Origin: Gammaproteobacteria bacterium
Lineage (GTDB): Bacteria; Pseudomonadota; Gammaproteobacteria; GRL18
Assembly (NCBI GenBank): GCA_016744395.1
Contig: JADGEK010000004.1
Coordinates: 1,967 to 65,966 of the forward strand
Length of the DNA stretch: 64,000 nt
Direction: 5' to 3'
Made by a program: the position numbers and the translations under genes. The notes beneath the pieces were generated by a model that saw only the letters and a program-made list of their open reading frames with translations, did no database searches and had not been told where the DNA came from. Of the stretch, positions 13,978 through 45,519 are shown piece after piece (within the stretch, counting starts at the first letter, position 1; the number at the start of each line of letters is the position of its first letter).

Positions 13978-16900
13978 TTAGTTAATCAATCTAATCACTC
14001 TAAAACCAGTTGATGAATTACCTTGAGCAACATTTTTCTGCATGTATTCAATGGTACAATCTTTAATAGAATCCTGATAAGAACCGCCTCTCACAATGGT
14101 TTGATTATTATCAATTACATATTCACTGGCATTTCCAATAATATTCATTATTCCCCAGGGATTGGACTGCCCCGTATTTGCAGCCAACAAATTTTGTCCT
14201 TTTAGAAGTTTACTGCCAAATTTAATACGACAATTGACATCATTATAGGAGACAGGCTTATTGGTTTTCGCAGCATGTAGCCACTGGTCTGAAGTTGGAA
14301 TAGAATATTGTCTGTGTGTTGTTTTACTCAACCAGTTCACATAATTTTTAACATCAGTAATTGGTATACTCGTTATTGGTAATGAGCCCCTCCCCTTTTT
14401 CATTGAACAGCCTCCTGATAGTTGGCAATAGTTATTAAAGTCTTTAATAGTGATTTCATACTTTGAAATAGCAAAGACTTGTTCTCCTGGTTTTTTACCT
14501 GGTAAGACAACTAAAGTCGGTGCTTTAATATGTTTTCCTATTAAATCATTACAATTTGCCCTTCTTTGTTTTCCATAACCTGCAAACTTTGCTTTACAGG
14601 TGTCATTCAATTTTGGAAATATTTTTGAACTTATTTCCTGTTCTTTATTTTGCTTTTCCTCAACGAGGATTTTATTAACAGCTTTTAATTGAGATGCCTG
14701 TTGGGCCATAAGACGACTATTGCTTAAAAGTTTTTTTTGTTTTTCAGCTTTTTTTCGCAATGATCTCAAACCACTATGATATGATTCAAATTTTAAGCCA
14801 TTATTGACTACTTTTAATGTTTTATCATACTTCTTAACTATAAAGAGTGTATTGGCTTGCTTATAAAAAGATTGTGCAATGGCTTGTTTGGCTTCACTTG
14901 AAATATAAGGATCGTTGCGGCCCAAAATTCTTTTCAAATCTTCATATGTTCTTAGTGCAGACTCCATTTCCTCAGCTTTTAACTGGATGGAAAGCGACAT
15001 TTTCAGGCCTTCAATTTTAACCAGTTGCTGCTTTGCTTTATGCCTGACACGAACAATGTTTTCCAAAGCGATTAAAATAGCTTCTTCATCTTTTAAACCA
15101 AAAATAGCATTATTGTATTGTTTTGCTTTTTCCAGGAAACGTCTGGATTCAACAAAGCGTTTATCATCACGCATAGCAACCGATTTTTGCAAATACAATG
15201 TGGCTAAAGTTTGATTTTTTTCATTCAGCCATATGGAATGACGGCCCAATTTTAATGACAGTTGAGAATATAGAGTGGTCACTTGTTTATCCCAATCATC
15301 GGTCAATTCAGGATTTAAGATCAGTAATGACAATTGTTCTTTTAATTTTGAGATATTCAATGTTGACAGTGGTTCATTTATTTCTTGTGAATGAATCATT
15401 TCATTTGAATCATCTGTTTTAATTGATTTTAATTGATCAATTAAATTTTGTAATATAATTTCATTTGGAAAGATCACTCTTGCTTTGGCTAACAAACTTT
15501 TAGCCTCTTCTGTTTTCAACTCTGAAAAAAACCTTTCTACATTATCTTGATAGATCAATAATAATCGTTGGTCTTGAATTAAAGGATGAGCTATATCAAT
15601 TTGTTTAATACTGCTCACGATTTCAAATATTTGTTCTTGCTCAACACTATCACTAGTCAATTCAGAAAACTGCAAGGTTTCAATCAGTTCATTAAAATGA
15701 CTGTTAAGCTGATTTAATTGAACAAATTTTTGTTTTTCAAACAGTTCAAAAAGTCTAGCGACTTGTGCTGAATCAGAATAATAGCTTTGTGAAATCAGTA
15801 ATAACTCATCAATTTTATGATATTGATTTTCTGTATTATCGGTGTATAAGCTATCAACTTTAACCTCAACCAAGCTTAACCACTTATTCTTAATACTTTT
15901 GAGTACATGAGCTTTCGTTGAACCATGGAGTAAACTAATATGTGTTCGGATGGATCTTAAATCCTCGTCTTTAAGTTCTGATTTTATTGAAAGAACCCTT
16001 TCAATAAAACGAGTTTGTTTACTAAACTCATACTGTTCCATTATTTGTGGAAAAAAAACAATTAATAAAAAAATCAATGAAGTCAGTATTGAGAAATAGG
16101 CAGGCTTTCTGCTCTTTTTTCTATAGTTATATGATTTTAAAAACTGTTCGATATTGGAATACCGATTTTCACCCTCAATTTCTAAAGCTTTCAATAATGC
16201 TTTTGATTTTTCTTTATGTTGTGATTGACCAAAAGCAGATATTTGCTTTACTTTTAATTTTTTTTCTTTAGCCTTATCTGCTGGTAACCTTTTATACGGA
16301 TGATTCCCTGTCAGTAATTCATAAAACACACATGCAATTGAATAGATATCATCATGAGGTTCTGGTGACTTTCCTTCAAGCATTTCAAGACTGGCATAAG
16401 TGGGCGTTAGTGCACCAAGTTCTGTTGGATCAAATAAGGTTTTATTTGAATTATGATCTTCAGACTGACCATGTGATAAGTGACAGGCACGCGCAATACC
16501 AAAATCAAATATTTTGGCTATATTATCATCCGTAATAAAAACATTACTGGGTTTTAAATCTGAATGAATGATACCGTGTTGATGGGCATATAGGACAGCA
16601 TTTGCGACTGCATTGATGATAGGTGTCGCTTCTGATTCAGGCACACCATGAGGATAATCTTCGGCAATGACTTGATCCAGTGGTCTTCCACGCAATAATT
16701 CCATCGTCATAAAAACAACATCACCATCGCGATCAAAATCATGAACATTCACAATGTTGGGGTGAGATAATTGTTGTGATTTTCGAGCTTCACGTTGTAA
16801 AGCAATTAAAGACTCTGGATGCTCTCTAAATTCATCATTTAATAGTTTAATAGCAATAAAAGGATTTTTATCATGGGCTTCTTGTTTTCTAAGATCAAGC

Positions 16901-17334
16901 GCTTTATAAACCTTTCCCATTCCGCCCACACCCAAAACCTCTTTGAGTACAAATCGTTTATTGATGACACTGTCTGTGCTGACCGTCATTAAATCTGAAA
17001 TAGAATGATGATCTTTTGTTTGAATTGACTGATGAATTGATGGATTAAAATATCGCGTTGCACCATTATCTGGTTCAGATTCAGGATGCAATTGAATGTT
17101 TATTTTGTCATGTTTATCTAAACAGTCTTGTTTCTCAGAACAATTATCGACAGTTGGGTTCACAAAAACAGTACGATCATCAATACAAGCAGATGAAACG
17201 GCAGATTTAACTCGAATGACAGTTTGATTATTAGCTTCTTTAACTGAGACAGATTTTTTATTTTCATCAGCTTCATTGGCATAAGCCAAATAAGACTGTT
17301 TGTCGATGAGTTGAATCTTATCTTTAGTTGTCAT
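13978..17334 (-). CDS. ppkA: PpkA-type T6SS Ser/Thr kinase fused to an FGE-like domain
   Basis: Membrane kinase of the T6SS threonine-phosphorylation switch, 1118 residues. The cytoplasmic part has an N-terminal tail with Thr38 (NQTVIR) and Thr55 (DDRTVF). The kinase domain begins near 125, with a Gly loop GVGGMGKVY, the IAIK lysine, HSDLKPSN near 260 and DFG near 276. HSD replaces the common HRD, so it is a non-RD kinase. One membrane segment lies at about 415-435. A long helical, probably periplasmic region follows, then a formylglycine-generating-enzyme (FGE/SUMF1) fold from about 938 with KYEITIKDF, VRGGSY and the terminal GFRVIR. P. aeruginosa TagR, which acts upstream of PpkA, is as I recall a separate FGE-like protein. 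Here the two seem joined. It is the last gene of the operon, five bases after the phosphatase. Confidence 0.9.
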   Translation of the reverse strand: MTTKDKIQLIDKQSYLAYANEADENKKSVSVKEANNQTVIRVKSAVSSACIDDRTVFVNPTVDNCSEKQDCLDKHDKINIQLHPESEPDNGATRYFNPSIHQSIQTKDHHSISDLMTVSTDSVINKRFVLKEVLGVGGMGKVYKALDLRKQEAHDKNPFIAIKLLNDEFREHPESLIALQREARKSQQLSHPNIVNVHDFDRDGDVVFMTMELLRGRPLDQVIAEDYPHGVPESEATPIINAVANAVLYAHQHGIIHSDLKPSNVFITDDNIAKIFDFGIARACHLSHGQSEDHNSNKTLFDPTELGALTPTYASLEMLEGKSPEPHDDIYSIACVFYELLTGNHPYKRLPADKAKEKKLKVKQISAFGQSQHKEKSKALLKALEIEGENRYSNIEQFLKSYNYRKKSRKPAYFSILTSLIFLLIVFFPQIMEQYEFSKQTRFIERVLSIKSELKDEDLRSIRTHISLLHGSTKAHVLKSIKNKWLSLVEVKVDSLYTDNTENQYHKIDELLLISQSYYSDSAQVARLFELFEKQKFVQLNQLNSHFNELIETLQFSELTSDSVEQEQIFEIVSSIKQIDIAHPLIQDQRLLLIYQDNVERFFSELKTEEAKSLLAKARVIFPNEIILQNLIDQLKSIKTDDSNEMIHSQEINEPLSTLNISKLKEQLSLLILNPELTDDWDKQVTTLYSQLSLKLGRHSIWLNEKNQTLATLYLQKSVAMRDDKRFVESRRFLEKAKQYNNAIFGLKDEEAILIALENIVRVRHKAKQQLVKIEGLKMSLSIQLKAEEMESALRTYEDLKRILGRNDPYISSEAKQAIAQSFYKQANTLFIVKKYDKTLKVVNNGLKFESYHSGLRSLRKKAEKQKKLLSNSRLMAQQASQLKAVNKILVEEKQNKEQEISSKIFPKLNDTCKAKFAGYGKQRRANCNDLIGKHIKAPTLVVLPGKKPGEQVFAISKYEITIKDFNNYCQLSGGCSMKKGRGSLPITSIPITDVKNYVNWLSKTTHRQYSIPTSDQWLHAAKTNKPVSYNDVNCRIKFGSKLLKGQNLLAANTGQSNPWGIMNIIGNASEYVIDNNQTIVRGGSYQDSIKDCTIEYMQKNVAQGNSSTGFRVIRLIN

Positions 17335-17339
17335 AAATG

Positions 17340-18083
17340 TTATTTTTTATCAATAACAATCATTGATATATTATCAGCAGCATTACCAAGCAGAACCTCT
17401 CCTAGTAATTTATTAGCCACTTTATCAATCTTTTTCTCATTGAGACTGGAAATAATCACATCATCTGTAATTTCATTGTACAAACCGTCACTGCACAAAA
17501 GTAATCTATCTCCAAATTGGATCTCGAATTGATTGAGATCAATCTTTAAATCTTCAGAAACTCCAATTGCACGTGTGATTACATTGCTTTGTGGGTGAGA
17601 TTTTGCTCCTTCATTGGTCAGCTCACCTCGGTCGATCATTTCTTGCACGATAGAATGATCTTTAGTGATTTGATACAATTTATTATTTCTATAGATATAT
17701 AAACGACTGTCTCCTACCCATAAACAACTGCATAAATTATCAACAATGTAGGCAATCACCACTGTGCTTCCAGCAACAACAGGTTGATTATCACCCTCAT
17801 TAAAATCAATCTGCTTTTCAAAAAAAACACCTGAATGAATTTTTTCATTAATAGATTTCAGCGTTTTTTTAATTTTATTAATTGAATTTTGTAGGCTTTC
17901 TTCAATGAGTTCTAGATTCAATAAGGCATCAGTAATGGACTTACTCGCTAAATCACCCGCTGAATGTCCACCCATACCATCTGCTATAACAAAGAGACTG
18001 TACTCAGGATGAGTCAAGATAGAGTCTTCATTAAATTTTCGTACATAGCCTGTATGTGTTCTCTGAGCACTGTAAAGCATCAT
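17340..18083 (-). CDS. pppA: PP2C-family Ser/Thr phosphatase of the T6SS switch
   Basis: Removes phosphate from phosphothreonine targets of the neighbouring kinase and so opposes T6SS activation. The 247 residues have the PP2C motifs in order: an Arg-containing start (HTGYVRKFNEDS), the metal-binding VIADGMGGHSAGD near 33, CLWVGDSRLY, LLLCSDGLYNEI, and the terminal DNISMIVI. The length is normal for PppA/Stp1. The start overlaps the tagF stop by one base (TAATG), and the kinase follows after five bases. Such a pair next to tssM is characteristic of HSI-II-type T6SS loci (stp1-stk1). There is no membrane segment, so it is cytoplasmic. Confidence 0.93.
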   Translation of the reverse strand: MMLYSAQRTHTGYVRKFNEDSILTHPEYSLFVIADGMGGHSAGDLASKSITDALLNLELIEESLQNSINKIKKTLKSINEKIHSGVFFEKQIDFNEGDNQPVVAGSTVVIAYIVDNLCSCLWVGDSRLYIYRNNKLYQITKDHSIVQEMIDRGELTNEGAKSHPQSNVITRAIGVSEDLKIDLNQFEIQFGDRLLLCSDGLYNEITDDVIISSLNEKKIDKVANKLLGEVLLGNAADNISMIVIDKK

Positions 18084-18844
18084 TACACTCCAATCAATGC
18101 AGGAGTATCACCAACCGAAAACAATGATTTAATGTTATGCCAAACTTCACGATCCCAATTACCATCTAATAGAGATGAAAATCCATCACGTTCTGGTAAG
18201 CCTTCACAGACTAAAAATGAAGGTTTAATCTCTTCAGAACCCGAAGTCCACCAAAAACTATAGGATGAAAATGCCTGTTCTATAAAAAAATGACTGATGG
18301 CGGGAAATGAGCTTAACGGATTGGCATTAACAGAATCCATAGAAAAGTGCCCCTGAAACCGATTTTCTTTATGAATTTCATTCGGATTGTCATTATTATT
18401 AATGCGACTAACAATAGGATCGCCTAATTCTACTAGACTGGCCTCTAAGTTTTCTAATTGAAAATCATCATCTAAGGTAGAAAGTGCAATTTCTTCAGCC
18501 TGTTCAAGCCAATGATGACATTCATCAATCAAAGCAATAGGTTTAACAGTTTCAGTAATGTGTGATGCAATGGTTAAAGGAAAATAACGACCCACTCTAT
18601 CAACACTTGGAATTATGATACCTACCCAGACATCTTCACCACAATTGCCATCTGATATAATAAATTTCCAAACTGGTGCGACCAAAAAAAAGTCTAACCA
18701 TTCATCACCTAATTGTTCCTGGCTGGCTGCCATTGCTGTTTGTAGCCATTCATCCCATGGGTCAATAAAAGTACGCGGTAGATTCCGTGATAAAAAATCA
18801 CCATGGGTAGGCAGTTTTCCATAAAAGCCATTCAGTTTACTCAT
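18083..18844 (-). CDS. tagF: TagF (ImpM family), T6SS-associated repressor
   Basis: TagF proteins hold back T6SS assembly after translation, in P. aeruginosa by interaction with Fha. From the ATG at 18844 the protein has 253 residues and begins MSKLNGFYGKLPTHGDFLSRNLPR, the conserved opening of the family. The longer TTG frame at 18853 sits too close to the AAAGG ribosome site, whereas the ATG is at a fitting distance. The central VAPVWKFIISDG and GVIIPSVDRVGRYFPLTI motifs are typical. It lies between tssM and pppA, so the negative regulators are coexpressed with the membrane complex. It is about 20-40 residues longer than many homologues because of an inserted loop near 145-175. Confidence 0.93.
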   Translation of the reverse strand: MSKLNGFYGKLPTHGDFLSRNLPRTFIDPWDEWLQTAMAASQEQLGDEWLDFFLVAPVWKFIISDGNCGEDVWVGIIIPSVDRVGRYFPLTIASHITETVKPIALIDECHHWLEQAEEIALSTLDDDFQLENLEASLVELGDPIVSRINNNDNPNEIHKENRFQGHFSMDSVNANPLSSFPAISHFFIEQAFSSYSFWWTSGSEEIKPSFLVCEGLPERDGFSSLLDGNWDREVWHNIKSLFSVGDTPALIGV

Positions 18845-18857
18845 TTTGATCAAACCT

Positions 18858-21800
18858 TTAATTTAAAGAGATGGGTGCTCTATAGCGTTTTAATAAATTA
18901 TGGTTAAAGGGGTTTTTAACACTATTTGCAATCAACTCAAATTTCGCTTTCTTACCTTCTAATACATAATCAACAATAAAATGATCATTGAGTTTCGTGG
19001 ATTTTAGATCATAATTATCCATTATTCTAAAAAAAGCCCAGGGGCCACTTTCTTTATAAGCGACTCGATCACCGTGTAGATCTTCAAATATGATCTTAGC
19101 TTCGTTGTAATCAGTACTACCTGGCCAGGTCATTTTACTGGATATCAATGGACCATGTTGATAAATGACATTTTGATCACCCTGTCTCAATTCAAACTTT
19201 GCAATATTGGAATCCAGATACATAGGGCGGAGTGAATAATTGATCTTAGGAAAATCATGATCCATTTTAAAAAAGACTTTCCTGATACTTTCAGCTCGTT
19301 CAAACTGACGCAAAGCTTTGGGATTGATCGATAAACTGAAACCTTCAACCTGTTTCAAGGTCCATGGTTTTCTTTTCGTATTCACAAAATCTTTGAGGTA
19401 AGTATTGAAAAATGTCGATTCAATACCATCAGGCTTAAAGTATTCAGTGAAATCAGCCAGTGAAGCTTCATCATTAGCCTTTGAATGTAAAGGATAACGA
19501 TTTTTCATGCTGCGTTTATAAAAAGTCATAACACTGGATTGATAAACAGTATTCAGATATGAGTTTGACTGTGATAAGACTAAATTCCAGGAATCTTTAG
19601 AAATGTCTTTTAACCAACTTCTCAATGGCTCAGGAGAGCGTGTAGATAACAGTTTTAATTGACCAACAGGATCTTGAGCACCACCTTTCAAACGATTTTT
19701 TGCCAAACGATAGGCTGTTTCACCGTCATCCATGGTGTTGGCAAGATTATTTAAATATCCTTGAAGTTCTGCCAGGGCCATCATAACATCACTCAGATGT
19801 GAGGGACGACCGTTTTTCTGTTCGACCGTCTGATTCAAATCAAAAAACTGTTTTTCAACAATATCAGTGGGCTTATCAGGTAAGTTTATTAATTTTCTTG
19901 AAGACACCCTTTTCACCATCCGAACAATGGAACCAGTTCTACCTGTTATTCGACGTGTCACTTCATTGGTTAATTCTTTATTATTTTCCAGTGTTTTTTT
20001 ATCAATGGCTAACTGACCTAAACGTGTGTTTTCAGCAACATTTTCTATCACACCTCGAAACGGTGAATAGGGTCCAGTGATTTGAGTCAAAGTATCAATT
20101 GCCTGGTTAACATTTGAAAAACGATTTATAGTCAATTCATTTAATGCATTGTTCCAGTACCGAGCATAATCTTCTAAATAAAGTGACTTTACTTTATCTT
20201 TAAATAATGAAATATCAGAAATTGTAAAATCACCATTCTTAGTACCTAAAACCCAATTTTCTTCTGCAATTTCTCTGACATATAATAGACTGTCTTTTAA
20301 AAAAATATTTTTATAGCCATCATAGGTGTATAAATACGGTACTGATTTTGTCGTACCAGAAAAAATCATATTCATTTCTGGACCAACTTGTGCTGAAAAT
20401 GTAAATGCTTCATCATTCGCATTTTTTGCTTCCAGTTTAATACGATTATAAATTTGTTGATGTAAGGGTACTTTTCTTAAAATCATACGTGCTTTTTCAA
20501 CTAACGCTTGATTGATTCGAATTTGTCCATAATCTGTAGCCAACAAGCTATCCAGATGCTTTTTAAGCTGAGATTGCAATTCAGCTTCCCCTGTCATATG
20601 AGTACTCCAGTCTAACTCCATCCATTGCTCAATAAATTCTTTTTCAAAGCGTTTAGGAAGTCCCATCATTAAATAGGCTTTTAATGCCTCAAATAAATAA
20701 TCAGGTTGATTAATGCTTAAACGTATTTGTTCTTCAAGACGATGTTTTAAAGCAGGTAAGAAGAGTTGTTTAAGTTGTTCCATATAAGCCTGATACATAG
20801 ATTCATGAAAACTTTTTCCTTGATACAAACCTAATTGCATGGTCGTTGGAATCGCTTCATCAGGCGGGAATATAGAATCGGCTGAATTTAAGCGTTGTAA
20901 TTGAGCATTGACCTCATGAAAACTTATACGCTTTAAAGTTGATAAACCATCATTATATTGAGTAAGCTGTTCATCTACTTTTTTAATATTTCGTTCATTT
21001 AATGTAAAACTGGTCGACCATGCCAAAGCACTGGCAGTTGCAACAAAAATTGCCGTGACATAGGATACACGTTGAAACCATAACATTTTATTTTCAAATC
21101 GACGATTAACACCCACTAAATCAGCCTCAGTAAATATCACCTGCTGCAGTAGGTTTTTAATGAAATAGCTTTTTCCCCGAGTTTTAATCGCAGATAAGGA
21201 CTGCCTGTCAATATCGAATGAATCAATAAGATTATTCATAATACGATCAATTGGTGTCCCCTCTTGAGTACCACTGGTCAGATAGACGCCACGAAGGTTT
21301 GGTCGCTCATAAAATCTTGAAGAGGAAAAGGTTTGTTCGATAAAACTACTCAGTGAAGCTTTAATGGCTTCCAATTGCACAGGAAATTCAACAATTTTTC
21401 CACGTCGTTTAGGGTCACGCTCATAATTAAGACGCCACAAGATTCTATCATTGGCATTTTTCAGTAATTGATCAAATTCTTCATTGAATAAATAGCCTGG
21501 TAAAAGCTCACTGGCAGTATGATTCATGGCGCTTTCAGGAAATGTCATTCCCCATACCTGTTCTCTTTCATCACGGCCCAGATCATCAAAGAATTCTGAA
21601 AATCCAGCCACCATATCGACTTTTGTGATCAATAAATACACTGGGAACTGTATGTTCAATTGATTTTGAAGCTCTAGTAACCGACTTCGTATCGAATGGA
21701 TATGAGCAGTCTTTTCTTGTTCGGTTTGAGTTAAAATATCATGAATGCTAATGGCAACCATCACACCATTAATAGGACGTCTTTTACGATGTTTTTTTAA

Positions 21801-22421
21801 TAAATTAAGGAAACCACCCCATGCTGCTGAGTCATTAGCAGCATGGCTATCCTGTGTCGTATATCGCCCGGCAGTATCAATAAGCACGGCTTCATCAGTA
21901 AACCACCAATCACAATTTCTTGTACCACCAACACCTTTAACAGCTTCATGACCATATTTTTCAGCCAGCGGAAATTTTAAGCCTGAATTAACCAAAGCCG
22001 TAGTTTTTCCTGAACCAGGAGGCCCTATAATGACATACCATGGCAAATCATATATATATTGTTTGCCTCGATTATTTTTGCTTGAGTGTTTTAAAACATG
22101 CATCGCATCATCAAAACGCTCACTTAAAAGTTTAACCTCTTCATCAGAGACATCATCATCTTTACTATAACTGTCTTCTTTTAAACCTGCTATAAGCTGC
22201 TCGTCATTTTTTTTTGCCTGTGCCTGTATTCTTAAGTTATTTACTCCCCATAGCAGTAGTAAAATCATAATCGTAACAAGACGAACTGTCTCAGAGGCAA
22301 ATGGTATTTTTTCTGCAATCGCAACGAGTGGACCTACAAACCAGATAAGAATAGATAAGGCAATTATACCTAGTAAAGTAATAAACCATTTTTTTGTAAA
22401 AATTAATTTTAAGGCCTTCAT
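18858..22421 (-). CDS. tssM: TssM (IcmF/VasK), T6SS inner-membrane complex ATPase-like subunit
   Basis: Large inner-membrane component that, with TssL and TssJ, forms the trans-envelope complex that anchors the baseplate. The 1187 residues have two membrane segments near 10-60, a cytoplasmic NTPase region with Walker A GPPGSGKTT near 134 and VLIDTAGRYTT near 180, and a third segment near 455-475. A long periplasmic part follows, ending in the DUF1215-type C-terminal domain. The Walker A motif is intact, unlike in some TssM proteins that have lost it. The ATG overlaps the tssL stop by four bases (ATGA), showing coupling within the operon. Confidence 0.97.
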   Translation of the reverse strand: MKALKLIFTKKWFITLLGIIALSILIWFVGPLVAIAEKIPFASETVRLVTIMILLLLWGVNNLRIQAQAKKNDEQLIAGLKEDSYSKDDDVSDEEVKLLSERFDDAMHVLKHSSKNNRGKQYIYDLPWYVIIGPPGSGKTTALVNSGLKFPLAEKYGHEAVKGVGGTRNCDWWFTDEAVLIDTAGRYTTQDSHAANDSAAWGGFLNLLKKHRKRRPINGVMVAISIHDILTQTEQEKTAHIHSIRSRLLELQNQLNIQFPVYLLITKVDMVAGFSEFFDDLGRDEREQVWGMTFPESAMNHTASELLPGYLFNEEFDQLLKNANDRILWRLNYERDPKRRGKIVEFPVQLEAIKASLSSFIEQTFSSSRFYERPNLRGVYLTSGTQEGTPIDRIMNNLIDSFDIDRQSLSAIKTRGKSYFIKNLLQQVIFTEADLVGVNRRFENKMLWFQRVSYVTAIFVATASALAWSTSFTLNERNIKKVDEQLTQYNDGLSTLKRISFHEVNAQLQRLNSADSIFPPDEAIPTTMQLGLYQGKSFHESMYQAYMEQLKQLFLPALKHRLEEQIRLSINQPDYLFEALKAYLMMGLPKRFEKEFIEQWMELDWSTHMTGEAELQSQLKKHLDSLLATDYGQIRINQALVEKARMILRKVPLHQQIYNRIKLEAKNANDEAFTFSAQVGPEMNMIFSGTTKSVPYLYTYDGYKNIFLKDSLLYVREIAEENWVLGTKNGDFTISDISLFKDKVKSLYLEDYARYWNNALNELTINRFSNVNQAIDTLTQITGPYSPFRGVIENVAENTRLGQLAIDKKTLENNKELTNEVTRRITGRTGSIVRMVKRVSSRKLINLPDKPTDIVEKQFFDLNQTVEQKNGRPSHLSDVMMALAELQGYLNNLANTMDDGETAYRLAKNRLKGGAQDPVGQLKLLSTRSPEPLRSWLKDISKDSWNLVLSQSNSYLNTVYQSSVMTFYKRSMKNRYPLHSKANDEASLADFTEYFKPDGIESTFFNTYLKDFVNTKRKPWTLKQVEGFSLSINPKALRQFERAESIRKVFFKMDHDFPKINYSLRPMYLDSNIAKFELRQGDQNVIYQHGPLISSKMTWPGSTDYNEAKIIFEDLHGDRVAYKESGPWAFFRIMDNYDLKSTKLNDHFIVDYVLEGKKAKFELIANSVKNPFNHNLLKRYRAPISLN

Positions 22422-23569
22422 GCATTACTCCTTAAAGTCAACCATTGAACCATAGATTCATTGATTCTTTGCAGGTTCTTTTTGTGAAACAAGAGGTTTA
22501 ATGAGTTATTCAGTGACTTGTCCAAAGAGCTTTGTACTCTTTTTGCGGGTTTGACTAAGCGTTCTGTTCCCGAATTGGAGTCATCTAATAACTCATTGTC
22601 TTCTGTAAGAATTAGAGCTTGCTCAGAAGACACATTAGGTCCAAGCTTGATTATTTCATTAATCACGGGTGTCGAGGACTGGTCAAGCATATAGGAAAAA
22701 CTAGAAAACATGGCTAATAGAATCACACCTGATAAAGCACCTACCACCCATAAAGGTACATAACGTATGAGCGCACCTCGTCTATCAGAAACACCATGCC
22801 AATGACTGGATAGTTCTTTATTAAAGTCATTTTTTAAACTGCGTAACTGGCGGTATAGATCTTCTCTTAAGTGCTCAACCTCTCCAAGACCATTATCAAT
22901 CACACGGTACTTCCCCTGAAAACCAAGACTCATACAAATATACATTAACTCAAGAATATCCAAATTTTTAATAGGTTCTTTCAATAAGCGTTCCAGTAAT
23001 AAATAAAACTTTTCTCCACCCCATGTTTCACCATGAAAAAGACTCAATAAACTTTGTTGACTCCAGTCACTTTCTTTCCCCCAGGGAGTACTTACAACAA
23101 TTTCATCTAATGATGTACAGAGTACATATCGAGCCTGAAGAATTTTATCATTCGCAATTCCAGCACGACCTGAATCTATTTCAAAATGTTTGATTTCATC
23201 TTGAAGCTTATATTTGAGTGAAGGAATGTCATTATGCATGACAGAACTGGATAATTTGATCATCATCGATAATAGAGTTGATGCACAATAGACTAACTCA
23301 TTATGAGCATTCGTTGATGTATAGTCCTCATTAGGATCTGAAGCATTTTTTGGCATAGGACGATAATCTGCCATAATATCGCATGATGATTGTGAATAGA
23401 TACGCTTAGACTCTGCTGGTATCGGTCTTGGGGAAGCGACAGTTTGCCTGTTTCTAAAACTTACTTGTGTTTTATCATTTGCATGGGAAATAGCTTGACG
23501 TTTTCCACCTGGTCTTGGTCTTATAACCGTATTATCGTTTGGGAAACGAATAACTGTTTTATCATCCAT
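22418..23569 (-). CDS. tssL: TssL (DotU/IcmH), T6SS inner-membrane complex subunit
   Basis: Inner-membrane partner of TssM. The 383 residues consist of an unusual N-terminal tail of about 75 residues, the DotU cytoplasmic domain (NELVYCASTLLSMMIKLSSS through the HLREDLYRQL region), one membrane segment at about 272-295 and a periplasmic tail of about 90 residues. No OmpA-like peptidoglycan-binding domain is present. The tail has repeated threonine motifs: DKTVIR (Thr5), DNTVIRP (Thr14), DKTQV (Thr34) and RQTVA (Thr43). In Agrobacterium, Thr14 of TssL is phosphorylated by PpkA and then bound by Fha, so these are likely switch sites. The ATG is well supported and lies 39 bases after tssK. Confidence 0.95.
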   Translation of the reverse strand: MDDKTVIRFPNDNTVIRPRPGGKRQAISHANDKTQVSFRNRQTVASPRPIPAESKRIYSQSSCDIMADYRPMPKNASDPNEDYTSTNAHNELVYCASTLLSMMIKLSSSVMHNDIPSLKYKLQDEIKHFEIDSGRAGIANDKILQARYVLCTSLDEIVVSTPWGKESDWSQQSLLSLFHGETWGGEKFYLLLERLLKEPIKNLDILELMYICMSLGFQGKYRVIDNGLGEVEHLREDLYRQLRSLKNDFNKELSSHWHGVSDRRGALIRYVPLWVVGALSGVILLAMFSSFSYMLDQSSTPVINEIIKLGPNVSSEQALILTEDNELLDDSNSGTERLVKPAKRVQSSLDKSLNNSLNLLFHKKNLQRINESMVQWLTLRSNA

Positions 23570-25553: not shown

Positions 25554-27086
25554 TTATTTTCTTGCTTGTCGAATATCTTCAATTTGACGTTCATAGGCTC
25601 TACAAAACTCATTACCAAACATCATTGTAAATGCATCATCTTCATTTTTTATATCATTGTATAATTCATTAAACCCATCCCAATAACGCGATTTCTTACT
25701 ATTCAAAGTCAGAGTTTTGGATTTTGTTTTATTCGTCTTTTTAATAATTTTTTCTGGTGATAGTTTTTCTAACATGTAACTTAGGGCAGATTTCATACCG
25801 GCCATAACACCCACTTGATGTTCCTGTAACTCATCAAATGACTGAATGACAGCCTGTTCAGAATCCATGTAGCCTGACATGGGTTTAACCAACATATAAT
25901 GTACGAGTTGTTCATAATTAATGCAAAATTTAAGTGGATTATTTTCTTTTGTTTGAATAGTAGTCATAGACATACGAAATTCATTTTTTAAATGTGCCCT
26001 AGACATCATGATTTTCATGATGCCTGACATTGAATTTTTTGTGATTAGACCAATATTTTTAAGTAATTCTGGCAGATGTTCAGGGCTCACATCATTAGAA
26101 TTAATTCCAAGATTTTCTAATAAAATTTTGATAAGTTCCTGATTATTAATTAATGATGAAACTGCTGCTGAATCATGACATTCGTTATTTTGTTTCTTTA
26201 AAATTGATTGTTGTTCTTGTCGATTAAGGTTAGTGGAATTATGTTTTGGTGTAATAAATTCTGATTCGGACACAAAGTTATCTTTGTCAGGATCAGTAAT
26301 ATTAAAGTCACTTTTAAAATCTTCAAAGTCACCGACAATATTTTCTTTAGTCATGTTGTTGTTTTGTTGAACAATACTATTACTTTTCAATAATGTTTCT
26401 TTATGGGATGACTGACTATGAGCATAATTCTGTGATGAATTTGAATGGATAATTTTGGTATGCGTGTCCATATTATCCGTATCATTTTTTAACCAGTTTT
26501 CTGGAATTGCTTTAGGCAGATCAAAATAGGATTGAGTTGAAGGTATTGGATCTAATACTGAATTAATTGCATCAGGCTCTGCTAAAATATCTTTTTCCAG
26601 TAATCTGCCTGGAGCCAAACCATCATTTAACTGACTCAATGGGTCAATGAATTGGCTTGAATTTTGTGGTAATTCATGGGGAAACAATGGTATTGACGCT
26701 TCATTAACAGGACAAGTATTGAAGGCATCATGTGCACTCTGAGAAAAAACAGCCTTGGCTTGAGTAGAAATAATTGTTGCTTGAATTGAATACTGGCCAA
26801 GTAAAAAAATATCACCATTAGTAATGACATGATGAAATTGCCCCAAAGCTTGTTGTTCATGGTTAACAAAAAGGCCATTGGTACTATTATCAAGAATAAA
26901 AAATTGATTCTGTGCAAACTGAATTGATGCGTGCTGGCCTGAAATTAAACGTTCAGGATCATCAATTGACCAATCGTTATCTTGATTCCGGCCAATGGTG
27001 CCACCCGCTGCTTTAAAAACAAATTTTGACTGATCTTCAGTCATAGCATGTCTTTGATGACTGATTATTTCAAGTAATAAATCCAT
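25554..27086 (-). CDS. tagH: TagH/Fha, FHA-domain T6SS scaffold protein
   Basis: Cytoplasmic phosphothreonine reader that promotes T6SS assembly when partners are phosphorylated by the kinase. The 510 residues have an N-terminal FHA domain at about 28-95 with the key residues in GRNQDN, SGQHASIQF and DNSTNGLFVN, all intact. A low-complexity Asn/Ser/Asp-rich linker follows (roughly 150-310), then the conserved T6SS-FHA C-terminal domain (about 320-510, with YWDGFNELYNDI and the closing FCRAYERQI). It is the HSI-II fha2/VasC equivalent. About 190 bases separate it from the sigma-54 activator upstream, enough for its own promoter, but I find no sigma-54 box there. Confidence 0.94.
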   Translation of the reverse strand: MDLLLEIISHQRHAMTEDQSKFVFKAAGGTIGRNQDNDWSIDDPERLISGQHASIQFAQNQFFILDNSTNGLFVNHEQQALGQFHHVITNGDIFLLGQYSIQATIISTQAKAVFSQSAHDAFNTCPVNEASIPLFPHELPQNSSQFIDPLSQLNDGLAPGRLLEKDILAEPDAINSVLDPIPSTQSYFDLPKAIPENWLKNDTDNMDTHTKIIHSNSSQNYAHSQSSHKETLLKSNSIVQQNNNMTKENIVGDFEDFKSDFNITDPDKDNFVSESEFITPKHNSTNLNRQEQQSILKKQNNECHDSAAVSSLINNQELIKILLENLGINSNDVSPEHLPELLKNIGLITKNSMSGIMKIMMSRAHLKNEFRMSMTTIQTKENNPLKFCINYEQLVHYMLVKPMSGYMDSEQAVIQSFDELQEHQVGVMAGMKSALSYMLEKLSPEKIIKKTNKTKSKTLTLNSKKSRYWDGFNELYNDIKNEDDAFTMMFGNEFCRAYERQIEDIRQARK

Positions 27087-35097: not shown

Positions 35098-36660
35098 TTA
35101 TACTTGTTGACGGTGTTGCTGCGCATCTTTACTGACCTCCAGTTTGCCCACTAAAGACAGTGTAAAGTCAGCCCCCATATATTTAAAATGAGGCCGAACT
35201 TGTACCGAAGCACGATACCAACCAGGCTCTCCATCTACAGGTAAAACCTGTATACTGGCTTGTCGCAGTGGGCGTCGATTTCTTATTTCGATGGAGGGAT
35301 TTTCCTGATCGGATACATATTGTTTTATCCACTGATTTAAGCCTCGCTCAACATCGACTTTCTCTTTCCATGAGCCAATATTTTCTCTTTGAATCACTTT
35401 GAGATAGTGTGCTATTCTATTTATAATAAAAAGATAAGGCAGCTGAGTTCCCAACTTATAATTAGTATGAGTCTCTTTTTCATCAAGTGAGTGACCAACG
35501 TGTTTACTAGTTTGTACTGAATTCGCTGAGTAAAAAGAGGCATTATCTTTTCCACGCCTGAGAGTTAAAGCAATAAAACCTTCCTCAGTTAATTCATACT
35601 CACGTCTATCAGTTATCATAACTTCTGTGGGAAGTTTAGATTCAATAGTTCCCATAGCCTGATAAAAATCATGTGTCATCTCTTCGACTAAACCGCCTGC
35701 AGAAGGACCGATAATATGGGGACACCAACGAAACTTAGCAAAACTTTCTGTTAATCGAGACGCAAATAAAAATGCTGGATTTCCCCAAAGGGAATGTTCA
35801 TGTGATGTACTAATGTTTTCGATATAATCCATACCATAATTTATGAGCTTTTCATCGATTGACTGATAGGATCGACGTAGCAAAAAACGAGGCAAAACCA
35901 GACCGATATAACGTGAATCTTCTGTTGTCCTGAAACGGTTCCATTTTTGAAATTTAGGACTTGTAAAAATATCCTGCATATCAACAATTGAAGGCAGCTC
36001 CCTCATGTCATCAATATCAAAAAAATCACAATCTGCAGCGGCAATAAATGGCGTATGGGACATGGCACCAATACTCGCTATTTTTTGCAGTAATTTGATA
36101 TCGGGTCCCTTCGGTGTTATCTGGTAGTTTCCAATCATTACACCATAAGGTTCACCACCGTATTGACCATACTCCTGACTGTAAACCAATTTATAAAGAC
36201 CTGATTTAACAATTTCAGGTGCATCTTCCAGGTCTTCCAATAAATCAGACTGAGATAGATTGACCAGCTCAACTTTGATATTTTCATTGAACTGAGTTTG
36301 TTTAATGAACAGATTCAGGCTACGCCAAGCGGATTCCAGAGCCTGAAATATAGAATGATGTAAAATTTCATCGATTTGATTTTTTATTTTACGATCAATT
36401 TCAGCAATGATAATACTGACTAAAAAAGCATCAACTAATGGTTGGCTAAAACTTTCAGGTTGAGTGTCTTTTAACGCGCTTTTAAGGATAAGTCTAAGGG
36501 CACTTTGAAGGGAATCTTGATCAATTTCCCTTATAGTATTCCCGAAAAAAGAAGGATGATGGGCCTCGTGTACAACGTAAGTTTGTATGAGTCCGTATAA
36601 AATAGATGAATCCAGCATTCCAGAAACAGGAGATGCGTTCTGCTCGTCCAGTTGAGCCAT
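35098..36660 (-). CDS. tssC: TssC (VipB/ImpC), T6SS contractile sheath large subunit
   Basis: Large subunit of the contractile sheath, which must pair with TssB to polymerise. The 520 residues match the family in length and in motifs: IFQALESAWRSLNLFIKQT near 105, GEPYGVMIGNYQI near 175, PFIAAADCDFFDI near 208, RFLLRRSY near 265, and the C-terminal RPLRQASIQVLPVDGEPGWY. The ATG follows AAAGGAA. It is the first gene of the cluster here. tssB, which nearly always lies directly upstream, is absent: the 216 bases before it lead only to the end of ftsK. A promoter must lie in that gap, but I cannot place it. Confidence 0.97.
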   Translation of the reverse strand: MAQLDEQNASPVSGMLDSSILYGLIQTYVVHEAHHPSFFGNTIREIDQDSLQSALRLILKSALKDTQPESFSQPLVDAFLVSIIIAEIDRKIKNQIDEILHHSIFQALESAWRSLNLFIKQTQFNENIKVELVNLSQSDLLEDLEDAPEIVKSGLYKLVYSQEYGQYGGEPYGVMIGNYQITPKGPDIKLLQKIASIGAMSHTPFIAAADCDFFDIDDMRELPSIVDMQDIFTSPKFQKWNRFRTTEDSRYIGLVLPRFLLRRSYQSIDEKLINYGMDYIENISTSHEHSLWGNPAFLFASRLTESFAKFRWCPHIIGPSAGGLVEEMTHDFYQAMGTIESKLPTEVMITDRREYELTEEGFIALTLRRGKDNASFYSANSVQTSKHVGHSLDEKETHTNYKLGTQLPYLFIINRIAHYLKVIQRENIGSWKEKVDVERGLNQWIKQYVSDQENPSIEIRNRRPLRQASIQVLPVDGEPGWYRASVQVRPHFKYMGADFTLSLVGKLEVSKDAQQHRQQV

Positions 36661-36876
36661 AATAATAATTCCTTTTATATTATCAGGCTATTCTACACTT
36701 TTTGCATGATTATTTACAGTACCAGGAAAAATGAACAATTAAACAAACAACATATTAAATTAAGTGATTAATTTTAAAGTTTATTTATTAATATCTGAGG
36801 ACAATACTATAGAACAATGCTTCACTTCAGAACAGTTATACAAAAAATTTCATAATAGCCTAATATGGCTCAGTCA

Positions 36877-39375
36877 TTAAATTGGCGGTGGAGCAATGAC
36901 TTCTCTTTGGCCATTAGACTGAACGGCACTAACAACTCCAGCTGCTTCCATATCCTCTACCATACGTGCAGCACGGTTATAACCGACTTTAAGACGTCGC
37001 TGTAGACCTGAAATAGAGGCTCTACGAGTTTCAGTGACAATTGAAACCGCTTGATCATAAAGAGGATCTGTTTCACTTTGAGGATCGGCATCTCCAGGGA
37101 TTAAACCGCCTGTTGAAACACCTTCTCCAGATAAAATTTCTTCAATGTATTCAGCTTTACCACGTGATTTCAAGTCATTAACCACTGCATGGACTTCGTT
37201 ATCTGAAACAAATGCACCATGAACCCGTATTGGATATCCCATGCCAGGTGGGAGATAGAGCATATCACCATGCCCCAGGAGATTTTCAGCTCCCATTTGA
37301 TCAAGAATAGTACGTGAATCAATTTTTGAAGAGACTTGAAAAGCGATTCTTGTCGGTACGTTGGCCTTAATTAATCCCGTAATAACATCGACAGAAGGCC
37401 TTTGTGTTGCAATAATAAGATGCAAACCTGCCGCACGTGCCTTCTGGGCCAGACGAGCAATCAACTCTTCAACTTTCTTGCCGACAATCATCATCATATC
37501 GGCAAATTCATCAATGACAATAACAATGTAGGGTAAGGCTTCAAGTTCTGACGCTTCTTCATCTGGTGTAAGAGGGTTGGGAGTAAATAAAGGATCTTTT
37601 ATGGGATCACCTGCATCAATTGCCGCTTCAATTTTTTTATTAAATCCAGCTAAATTCCTGACCCCCATGGCAGCCATCAGTTTATAACGTTTTTCCATTT
37701 CAGCAACACACCAGCGTAGGGCATTAGCTGCTTCTTTCATATCGGTTACAACAGGGGCAAGAAGGTGAGGTATGTCTTCATAGATGGACAATTCAAGCAT
37801 TTTTGGATCAACCATAATCAAACGCAACTGATCAGGAGCCAACTGAAAAATCATACTTAAAATCATTGAGTTCACACCAACAGATTTTCCCGAACCTGTT
37901 GTACCAGCAACCAGAAGATGTGGCATTTTTGCTAAATCGGCCACAATGGGCTTACCACTAATATCATGTCCCAGCCCTAAAGGTATACTGGCTTTACTGT
38001 CTGAAAACTCTTTAGCGCCTAGCACTTCACTAAAATAAACAATTTCACGGTGTTCATTGGGTATTTCAATACCAACAGTGGATTTGCCAGCAATAACTTC
38101 AACCACTCGGATACTGACTACTCTTAATGAACGAGCCAAATCTTTTGATAAATTAGTAATTTGACTGACTTTGATACCAGGAGCCAACAAGAGTTCAAAG
38201 CGCGTAATAACAGGCCCTTGACTGACTGAGTCAACTTCAACGCTTAAGTTATAGTCGGCCAGTTTTTCTTCAATCAAACGTGACGTTGCTTCAAGTTCTT
38301 CTGGTGAAGTAACATGAGAAGAAGGTTGAGCATCATCTAATAATGACAGTGATGGTAATCCATCAATCGCATCATGAGCAAATAACTTGGTTTGTTTATC
38401 CTTATTAACTCGCTCACTCTTTTTATTACCTTGAAACCTCGGCTCAATTTTTAATGCACTGGACGCTTTGGCATTTTTAGCGTCCAATTTTCTTTGCTGA
38501 GCAGCCTGTTTGAATGCCTCTTTATCTGCTTTTTTCTTTTCTTTAAGTCGATTTGTTTCTTCAGTTCTGGAAGACGCTAGCTCTGCATTAGAAGCTCTAA
38601 GCAATGCTTTTTCTGCATTTTTACGAGCAGAATCATCTCTCCATTGATACCACCGATTGATGAGCCATTTATTCCCATTAAGAACAGCCCCACCAATAGA
38701 GTCCATAAGCCATAACCAGGATAAGCCTGTAAAAAAAGTAATTCCTATAAGAAAAAAAGTTAATAATAATAATGTGGCACCAACAAAACTGAATAATTGT
38801 TGGAGTTGAATAGAGGTAACTTCACCTAAAATTCCTCCAGCATTAAGAGGAAATATAACCGATGGGTGAGTAAAGTGCATACTGGAAAGGCCTGCTCCAG
38901 CAATAACCGTGATTATAAAACCAATTGTCCGTAGAGTAATGTGCCCGCTATGAAACACTTCTTCTTCATTTCGCCCACGATAAACAAGCCAGCCACTATA
39001 AAGGAGCATAGTTGGGAAGAGGAAGCCCAAATAGCCAAACAAATAAAGAAATAAGTCTGAAAACCAGGCACCAAATTTACCGCCACTATTATGCAACTTT
39101 GAAAGATCTATGGTCTCTGCAATACTATGTGACCAACCAGGGTCAGAGGGAGAGTAGGTAAATAAAGAGATAAACAAATACAAGCTAATGGCTATAAACA
39201 GAAAAAATACACTCTCTTTTATACCGCGTATAACTTGTGCTGAAAGTGGCTTTTTAATGTGTTCTTTATTAGCTGGTGCTTTTTTAGACGAAAGCGATTT
39301 ACTCGAAGCGGCTTTTTTTGAACTTGCTTTTTTCTTTGTACTGGTCTGGGCTTTCTTTTTTACGGTTTGCGGCAA
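36877..39375 (-). CDS. ftsK: FtsK, septal DNA translocase
   Basis: Membrane-anchored motor that moves DNA at the division septum and activates XerCD dimer resolution. The 832 residues begin with a Lys/Ala/Ser-rich tail (1-45), then four membrane segments (about 50-225), a short charged linker, the alpha/beta motor with Walker [14 protein letters not shown] near 492 and Walker [14 protein letters not shown], and a C-terminal winged-helix gamma domain (from about 770). The linker is short compared with E. coli FtsK. The start appears to be TTG at 39375, as no ATG lies within the tail, with a weak ribosome site. It lies 49 bases after the ald stop on the same strand. Confidence 0.95.
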
Positions 39376-43836: not shown

Positions 43837-45519
43837 TTATACTTTTTCCCATATTTTATGAAATAAATCTGTCTTTTTTTGCTGAACATCAAACGGAAAC
43901 TCTGTGTTATCCGCTTTTTCAAAAAGATATAATGAATAACCCAAAACTTCATCTACTTTTTGAATCAGGTTTATATTAATTGAACCAGTCTTATGTGTCA
44001 GAATAAGATGATCCATTCGTGAATTATAAAATTTTTCAACAAATGTGTGGGTAAAAAGTATGGGTTTGTATTGATGCTCTTTGCTACCAGGAAAAACAAA
44101 GCTGTCTAAAACTGTTTTTTTATCACATGAAGAAGACAGTTCAGTGTCTTTTGATAACTGAACAGCTTCAACCATTGCACTCAGGTATTCAATACCAAAT
44201 TCAATGTCCCCTTCTGAAGTTTCACGAATCCAGCGTAAATAACCCACTTGTATACTGTCATCAATATGCTTAATAGCAATAACTTCACCCATATTGGGGG
44301 AAATTGATTTTTGTGTTTGATTGTTGAGTTTAAGACGGATTCCCTTTTTAGATTCATCAATCAAATAAGCTTTGTAAAAAGACTTATTTGAAGAATGAGT
44401 TGACATGTTATTACCCAGGCTCTGAGGGTTTTCATTATCGAATTTCAGGATCTTTGGCACAATATCAACTTGTGTTAAAAACTGTGAGATACTCGAAACA
44501 CCGATGACAATATCAACAGGTTCAATGAGTTCATTTCTTTGAGTTTTGCGAATATTATGCCCCATCCAGGCACGAATTAACCTTTCTCGATAATAGTCTG
44601 AAATTTTTGTATATTTGTTTTTTTTATCTAATTGTTTAATTAATCTCTTTGTTTCCAGTCCCCATACTGAATCAGAAGTGAAATCAGATAAATCAAAATC
44701 ACTGATACTACCAGAACTTTCAGCATTATGATTAGAAAAAGGCGCATTATCACTATAAGGTTTAACAATAAATGGATAGTCTTTTTTTATAACTTGAACA
44801 GTGTTTAGATTCACATCCGAAAGTTTTGCCCAATCATCTAAATAGGACCAGAGGGATTTCATTTCTTGTGTTGATAATTGGTAGGGGTTTGCTAAAGAAA
44901 ATAAAAGCATTTTCTTATAGAGCTCTGCAATTGTGTGCTCAGTATCATGTTGCTCAGTTAATATTTTATTAGACAAATTTCTTTTGGATGCAAAGCGGTA
45001 CACTTGATGAATATCACGCCAAACAGTATCACTGCATCCAGAATATAAACGATAGTTTGAATACAACTGACCATTTAAGTAATAAAGCACATTATATAGA
45101 GCAGAAGTTAAATCTGTTTGTTTAATAAAAAAAGTAAAAAAACTACTTTCAGATAAATCATCAATAATGATTTTGTAACCTTTGGCCATCTCAGACCAAA
45201 ACGTATTCACAACTTCAACGTATTTTGATTTATCATCAGCAAGTGGCAGTCCTGAACCCTCATAATTCTTTGATAACTTATCTATCAAAGTAAGAATTGG
45301 TGTATGCAAATGTTCTAAAAATACTAAGCGCTTAGGTACTGATAATTCAAGCTGATTGACTTCAACTAAGAGCTGGAAGTATAAGTGTGCACGCTCACCT
45401 GTTTTTAGATTTGAATTCCGCTGAATCCATTGACCCAAGTCTTTAATAGAAGAATAAAGATCCTTACCATCAGATTTGTTTCTTTTCTCCAGTTGAAGCC
45501 ATAAAATGGTATCCTTCAT
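43837..45519 (-). CDS. Protein with PilZ-like domain, function unknown
   Basis: A soluble protein of 560 residues with no signal peptide or membrane segment. The N-terminal 300 residues are helical and match no family I recognise. A PilZ-like region lies near 375-460. It has the pattern D-E-S-K-K-G in YLIDESKKGIRLKL (consensus D/N-x-S-x-x-G), followed by GEVIAIKHIDDSIQVGYLRWI and GDIEFGIEYLS, typical strands of the PilZ barrel. The Arg pair (RxxxR) expected before it is not clear, so c-di-GMP binding is uncertain. A likely role is regulation or surface behaviour, but this is inference. It lies 54 bases downstream of purL on the same strand. Confidence 0.7.
   Translation of the reverse strand: MKDTILWLQLEKRNKSDGKDLYSSIKDLGQWIQRNSNLKTGERAHLYFQLLVEVNQLELSVPKRLVFLEHLHTPILTLIDKLSKNYEGSGLPLADDKSKYVEVVNTFWSEMAKGYKIIIDDLSESSFFTFFIKQTDLTSALYNVLYYLNGQLYSNYRLYSGCSDTVWRDIHQVYRFASKRNLSNKILTEQHDTEHTIAELYKKMLLFSLANPYQLSTQEMKSLWSYLDDWAKLSDVNLNTVQVIKKDYPFIVKPYSDNAPFSNHNAESSGSISDFDLSDFTSDSVWGLETKRLIKQLDKKNKYTKISDYYRERLIRAWMGHNIRKTQRNELIEPVDIVIGVSSISQFLTQVDIVPKILKFDNENPQSLGNNMSTHSSNKSFYKAYLIDESKKGIRLKLNNQTQKSISPNMGEVIAIKHIDDSIQVGYLRWIRETSEGDIEFGIEYLSAMVEAVQLSKDTELSSSCDKKTVLDSFVFPGSKEHQYKPILFTHTFVEKFYNSRMDHLILTHKTGSININLIQKVDEVLGYSLYLFEKADNTEFPFDVQQKKTDLFHKIWEKV

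Follow-up and report, generated by a model that had tools for sequence, protein, structure and literature searches.

A T6SS-linked Ser/Thr kinase with a predicted periplasmic, non-catalytic FGE-fold cap marked by six conserved cysteines

The DNA analysed here, referred to as the window, is a stretch of 64,000 nucleotides from a gammaproteobacterial contig. It carries one cluster encoding PppA, TagF, TssM, TssL, TssK, TssJ, an FHA protein, a sigma-54 activator, ClpV, TssG, TssF, TssE and TssC, next to the kinase gene that is the subject of this study (Table 1). The presence of T6SS core genes together with PppA, TagF and FHA genes bore out the T6SS setting that an earlier note on this DNA had proposed, and linkage of the kinase gene to these genes is a feature of PpkA-type kinases. 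We found that only 5 bases separate the stop codon of PppA from the ATG of the kinase gene, so that the two are likely co-translated.

Table 1. Features discussed in the text; positions are those of the window unless a locus is named.
Feature	Position	Strand	Basis and remarks
Kinase - membrane helix - alpha-solenoid - FGE-fold gene	13978..17334	minus	ORF, Pfam, AlphaFold models; 1118 aa, one frame
N-terminal region, residues 1-114	16993..17334	minus	pLDDT <50; probably disordered
Ser/Thr kinase domain, residues 118-405	16120..16983	minus	Pfam, structure match, motifs
Membrane helix, ~residues 412-432	16039..16101	minus	Hydropathy; RKKSRK on cytoplasmic side
Predicted periplasmic alpha-solenoid, residues 433-887	14674..16038	minus	AlphaFold helices, pLDDT mostly 80-93
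Six-cysteine FGE-fold cap, residues 913-1118	13981..14598	minus	Conserved cysteines, model, structure matches
PppA (PP2C phosphatase)	17340..18083	minus	Pfam, ORF
TagF	18083..18853	minus	Pfam
TssM	18858..22421	minus	Size, place between TssL and TagF, recurrence in related operons
TssL (DotU)	22418..23569	minus	Pfam
FHA protein with T6SS_FHA_C	25554..27086	minus	Pfam; likely phosphorylation target
Non-T6SS island examples	L088 1-8349; L095 400-8326

In Pfam, the product of the kinase gene gave a Pkinase match over residues 129-368 (2.5e-40) and an FGE-sulfatase match over residues 953-1114 (2.1e-9), the latter scoring 37.8 bits where the cut-off is 23.3. ORF, Pfam, hydropathy and AlphaFold analyses agreed with the earlier description of a kinase, one membrane helix, a helical part and a C-terminal FGE domain in a single frame. 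The full-length AlphaFold model had a mean pLDDT of 72 and a pTM of 0.39, and it should be read for its separate domains only. This domain order was found again in 56 homologous frames, indicating that the architecture is not due to chance.

In structure comparison, the kinase part of the model matched PknB (VIA Z 27.5) and the solved PpkA structure 5hnv (VIA Z 25.1). The domain retains the active-site residues K163, D259, N264 and DFG, and HRD is replaced by HSD, which is nearly invariant among the relatives. It is followed by the single hydrophobic segment of the protein (residues 408-435), with RKKSRK N-terminal to it; in nearly all of the 56 fusions the best hydrophobic stretch lies just after the kinase, preceded by positive residues. 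One membrane helix and an extracytoplasmic C-terminal region, as in PpkA-type kinases, are thus predicted. Beyond the membrane segment, the AlphaFold model showed helices throughout residues 410-887. A TPR match to this solenoid was obtained in one of 25 relatives and also in the Pseudomonas-like locus L159, and the structure comparison of the full-length model returned kinase matches only.

Residues 896-1118, modelled alone, adopted an FGE fold with a pLDDT of 82.6 and a pTM of 0.83. It matched PvdO (Z 20.2, rmsd 2.5, 189 aligned), TvpA (Z 18.8), CarF (Z 18.2), PorK (Z 16.8), T. curvata FGE (Z 16.2) and human FGE (SUMF1, Z 15.3). These values (Z 15-20) place the cap in the FGE/SUMF1 fold superfamily, and the comparison with SUMF1 that the earlier note had called for therefore favours its assignment. 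A Pfam match above the cut-off might also suggest formylglycine-generating activity for the cap. However, the cap reads GGSYQDSIKDC at the place of the canonical FGE motif, GGSYxCxxxxC, which contains Cys336 and Cys341 of human FGE. The first catalytic cysteine was present in none of 85 distinct homologues, which carry D, T, S or similar residues there, and the copper-binding cysteine pair of catalytic FGE (SUMF1) is missing from the cap. The full catalytic cysteine pattern is hence lacking, as noted earlier; an active FGE is rejected on the basis of the 85 rows, and we regard this function as extremely improbable.

The cap contains six cysteines, C913, C928, C970, C976, C1035 and C1093, which were conserved in 81/81, 84/84, 85/85, 85/85, 84/85 and 84/85 rows, respectively, and no other cysteines follow the membrane helix in the protein. 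The single row without C1035, a partner protein, is also without C1093; this one case is compatible with a bond between C1035 and C1093. At locus L143, a cap homologue occurs as a free protein of 275 aa with a signal-like N-terminus, adjoining PppA and FHA. The six conserved cysteines, the positive-inside flanks of the membrane helix and this signal-like free relative suggest, at the level of sequence, that the cap is probably located in the periplasm, and its cysteines are likely to form disulfides. One possible role for such a domain would be that of a periplasmic sensor, either of the redox state or of a small ligand, working through its disulfides or a lectin-like pocket. The six conserved cysteines and the occurrence of C-type-lectin-like folds, for example TvpA, among the best structural matches are in line with this, but plain structural disulfides explain the conserved cysteines equally well, and we consider a sensor of this kind unlikely.

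The earlier note had called the FGE part TagR-like. TagR was picked by synteny, on the basis of the P. aeruginosa gene order, TssM-TagF-PppA-PpkA-ABC genes-TagR, which is carried by five Pseudomonas-like loci. The TagR of the representative locus starts with a signal-like stretch, matches FGE (3.3e-26) and extends into a long C-terminal tail reading as helical. Like the cap, it is extracytoplasmic and has an FGE fold without the catalytic cysteines, and the two are homologous (hhalign probability 98.2), at ~21-26% identity over the domain. These common features, and the lack of any match to TagR and TagS queries, run without a positive control, in the genome of the window, would suit a TagR gene that had fused to PpkA and performs the same job within one molecule. 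Several observations argue against such a built-in TagR. All kinase-fused caps grouped into a single clade of the FGE tree (95/98), and TagR fell outside on a long branch; its exact place is unsure because of the long branches, and its lack of the six cysteines holds independently of the tree. TagR has one cysteine in its domain, is secreted as a protein of its own and carries a helical tail, whereas the cap is fused and the protein ends with the FGE fold. Its partner PpkA is of a different type, with a VWA-like region (a weak VWA match of 0.008, below the cut-off, in the representative that was scanned) and a kinase domain ~30% identical to that of the window, and the two ABC-transporter genes adjoining TagR are missing from the cluster of the window. 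The tree, the cysteines and the architecture rule out the cap as a TagR orthologue, and the separate clade, the missing six cysteines, the extra tail and the other type of PpkA indicate that the protein is not a TagR fusion. The FGE fold recognised in the earlier note therefore stands, but a derivation from TagR is not supported, and we judge it rather improbable that the cap does the work of TagR.

A scan with short peptides over 84,980 species genomes yielded 26 relatives, 23 of which have kinase and FGE in one frame, including Zooshikella, Colwellia, Psychromonas and Chromatiales. In at least 16 of these relatives, TssM, TagF and PppA lie directly upstream, and the order TssM-TagF-PppA-kinase is thus present in at least 16 loci from other taxa. 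The search for the same domain order in other T6SS loci was accordingly successful, and a fusion unique to this host is ruled out. The six-cysteine domain was detected in 32 of 369 same-class genomes, the window counted (E <1e-40), where it is well apart from generic FGEs, and in 43 of 294 genomes from the order that includes Zooshikella (E <1e-45), hence in about 9-15% of the sampled genomes. Most frames with a six-cysteine FGE are long enough for a fusion, and nearly all inspected loci were fused. We found the fusion in two settings: T6SS operons, in which the frames are mostly 840-1200 aa, and a non-T6SS island composed of a cyclase-FHA, a PP2C and a kinase-solenoid-FGE frame of 1400-1800 aa. 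The island often adds a second membrane-anchored FGE protein after the kinase-FGE and has mlaA/ubiG/gph-type neighbours (names read from the sequences). In one island copy (L092 3808-6837), a 771-aa frame that includes a membrane segment is followed by a 238-aa FGE frame, with no kinase match nearby. At L142 4206-6954 and L043 5572-8366, kinase and cap occupy two overlapping frames, which may reflect a frame break, an assembly error or a real split.

Within the genus of the window, the fusion is kept in three species (the window, L010 and L011). In L048 and L049 of the same genus, the protein stops at the solenoid boundary, at ~residue 888, and a riboflavin-synthase-like gene comes next; in L047, the cap is split from the rest by a frame break together with an insertion element. 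A second type of T6SS kinase without FGE is also found in this genus (L050, L057), and the Pseudomonas-like loci L159-L161 carry a related operon without FGE, with identities of 46% for TssM, 53% for the kinase and 28% for the solenoid. L054 and L016, in which the contig ends inside the gene, were left out of the cap-less kinases. Since the cap is missing from L048, L049 and L159-L161 and broken in L047, it is not needed for every such kinase, and it is an optional module. The idea that sensing and kinase output are one molecule holds to the extent that the kinase and a predicted extracytoplasmic FGE are on one chain; this arrangement is, however, neither particular to the host nor constant. 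The same losses might also mean that the cap is a decaying leftover without a role, the kinase and solenoid doing the work. This has little likelihood, as the six cysteines are invariant across ~85 diverse homologues and, in comparison with the two nearest relatives, the cap (64 and 61% identity) is as well conserved as the protein as a whole (62 and 60%).

By analogy with the PpkA systems of P. aeruginosa and Serratia, we prefer, with moderate confidence, the hypothesis that the protein is a T6SS receptor kinase with a disulfide-stabilised, non-catalytic FGE cap that docks an envelope partner or ligand. In both of these organisms PpkA is the target of a periplasmic factor and phosphorylates Fha (PMC6082577, PMC10482370), and in Serratia the activation of PpkA runs through its periplasmic domain (PMC6082577). 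The gene product would be the receptor kinase of a threonine-phosphorylation pathway for the T6SS of the cluster, which it probably switches on. The solenoid may act as a stalk that holds the cap out in the periplasm, where docking of the partner or ligand would position or dimerise the kinase, dimerisation being a conceivable route of activation. The cytoplasmic kinase domain would then phosphorylate, most likely, the FHA protein encoded in its own operon; PppA would reverse this phosphorylation and TagF would restrain T6SS assembly. A docking role finds its precedent in PorK, in which an FGE fold lacking the catalytic cysteines, as the cap does, serves as a docking hub for a partner (PMC12421860). 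Of the earlier suggestion that the FGE part binds rather than catalyses, the sequence speaks against catalysis, and binding is suggested by this analogy. A broader proposal, tentative and on the whole doubtful, is that six-cysteine FGE-capped kinases are a wide family of envelope receptors, wired to T6SS or to PP2C/cyclase-FHA, in which the caps have one envelope cue in common as their input and one protein replaces the TagQRST-PpkA relay. If this were true, the T6SS would sense attack or contact with one protein, not with that relay.

The protein resembles PpkA of the P. aeruginosa H1-T6SS in being a one-pass Ser/Thr kinase whose gene adjoins those of PppA and TagF in a cluster that also encodes an FHA protein, but its solenoid and FGE cap stand in place of the VWA region and the separate TagR. 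PvdO, PorK/GldK and SUMF1/FGE share the fold of the cap and none of them is kinase-fused; SUMF1, unlike the cap, is catalytic. One-pass kinases with SUMF1-type domains are already known, and such periplasmic domains are described as common in Planctomycetota (PMC11032199); cyanobacterial C-type-lectin kinases likewise join a Ser/Thr kinase to an FGE/C-type-lectin-type domain (PMC7517822). In the portions of these two reports considered here, neither group is reported as T6SS kinases. Other periplasmic domains are also known from T6SS-linked kinases: PknS of Xanthomonas citri depends for its signalling on a TPR region in the periplasm, but no FGE cap is described for it and its target is a sigma factor (PMC13147305). 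In the literature searched, with the main TagR and FGE immunity-protein papers outside it, no T6SS kinase fused to an FGE domain was described, and an earlier mention is possible. A candidate sensor that shares one polypeptide with the kinase and is marked by six cysteines offers a handle on what PpkA kinases sense, and the loss of the cap in some close relatives provides natural controls with and without it. Such caps should be named neither TagR nor formylglycine-generating enzyme, which corrects a likely mis-annotation.

Some further observations concern the window and its genome. A minus-strand ORF of 560 aa at 43837-45519 of the window had no Pfam match at E 0.001. At 35098-36877 of the window, where ftsK directly follows TssC, no TssB-sized ORF was seen between the two; copies of TssB are located on other contigs of the genome (C13, C84 and C6). 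A second T6SS cluster was found at C13:104000-124000 (L109), in which a 575-aa frame has TagF at its start and apparently runs on into a PP2C phosphatase.
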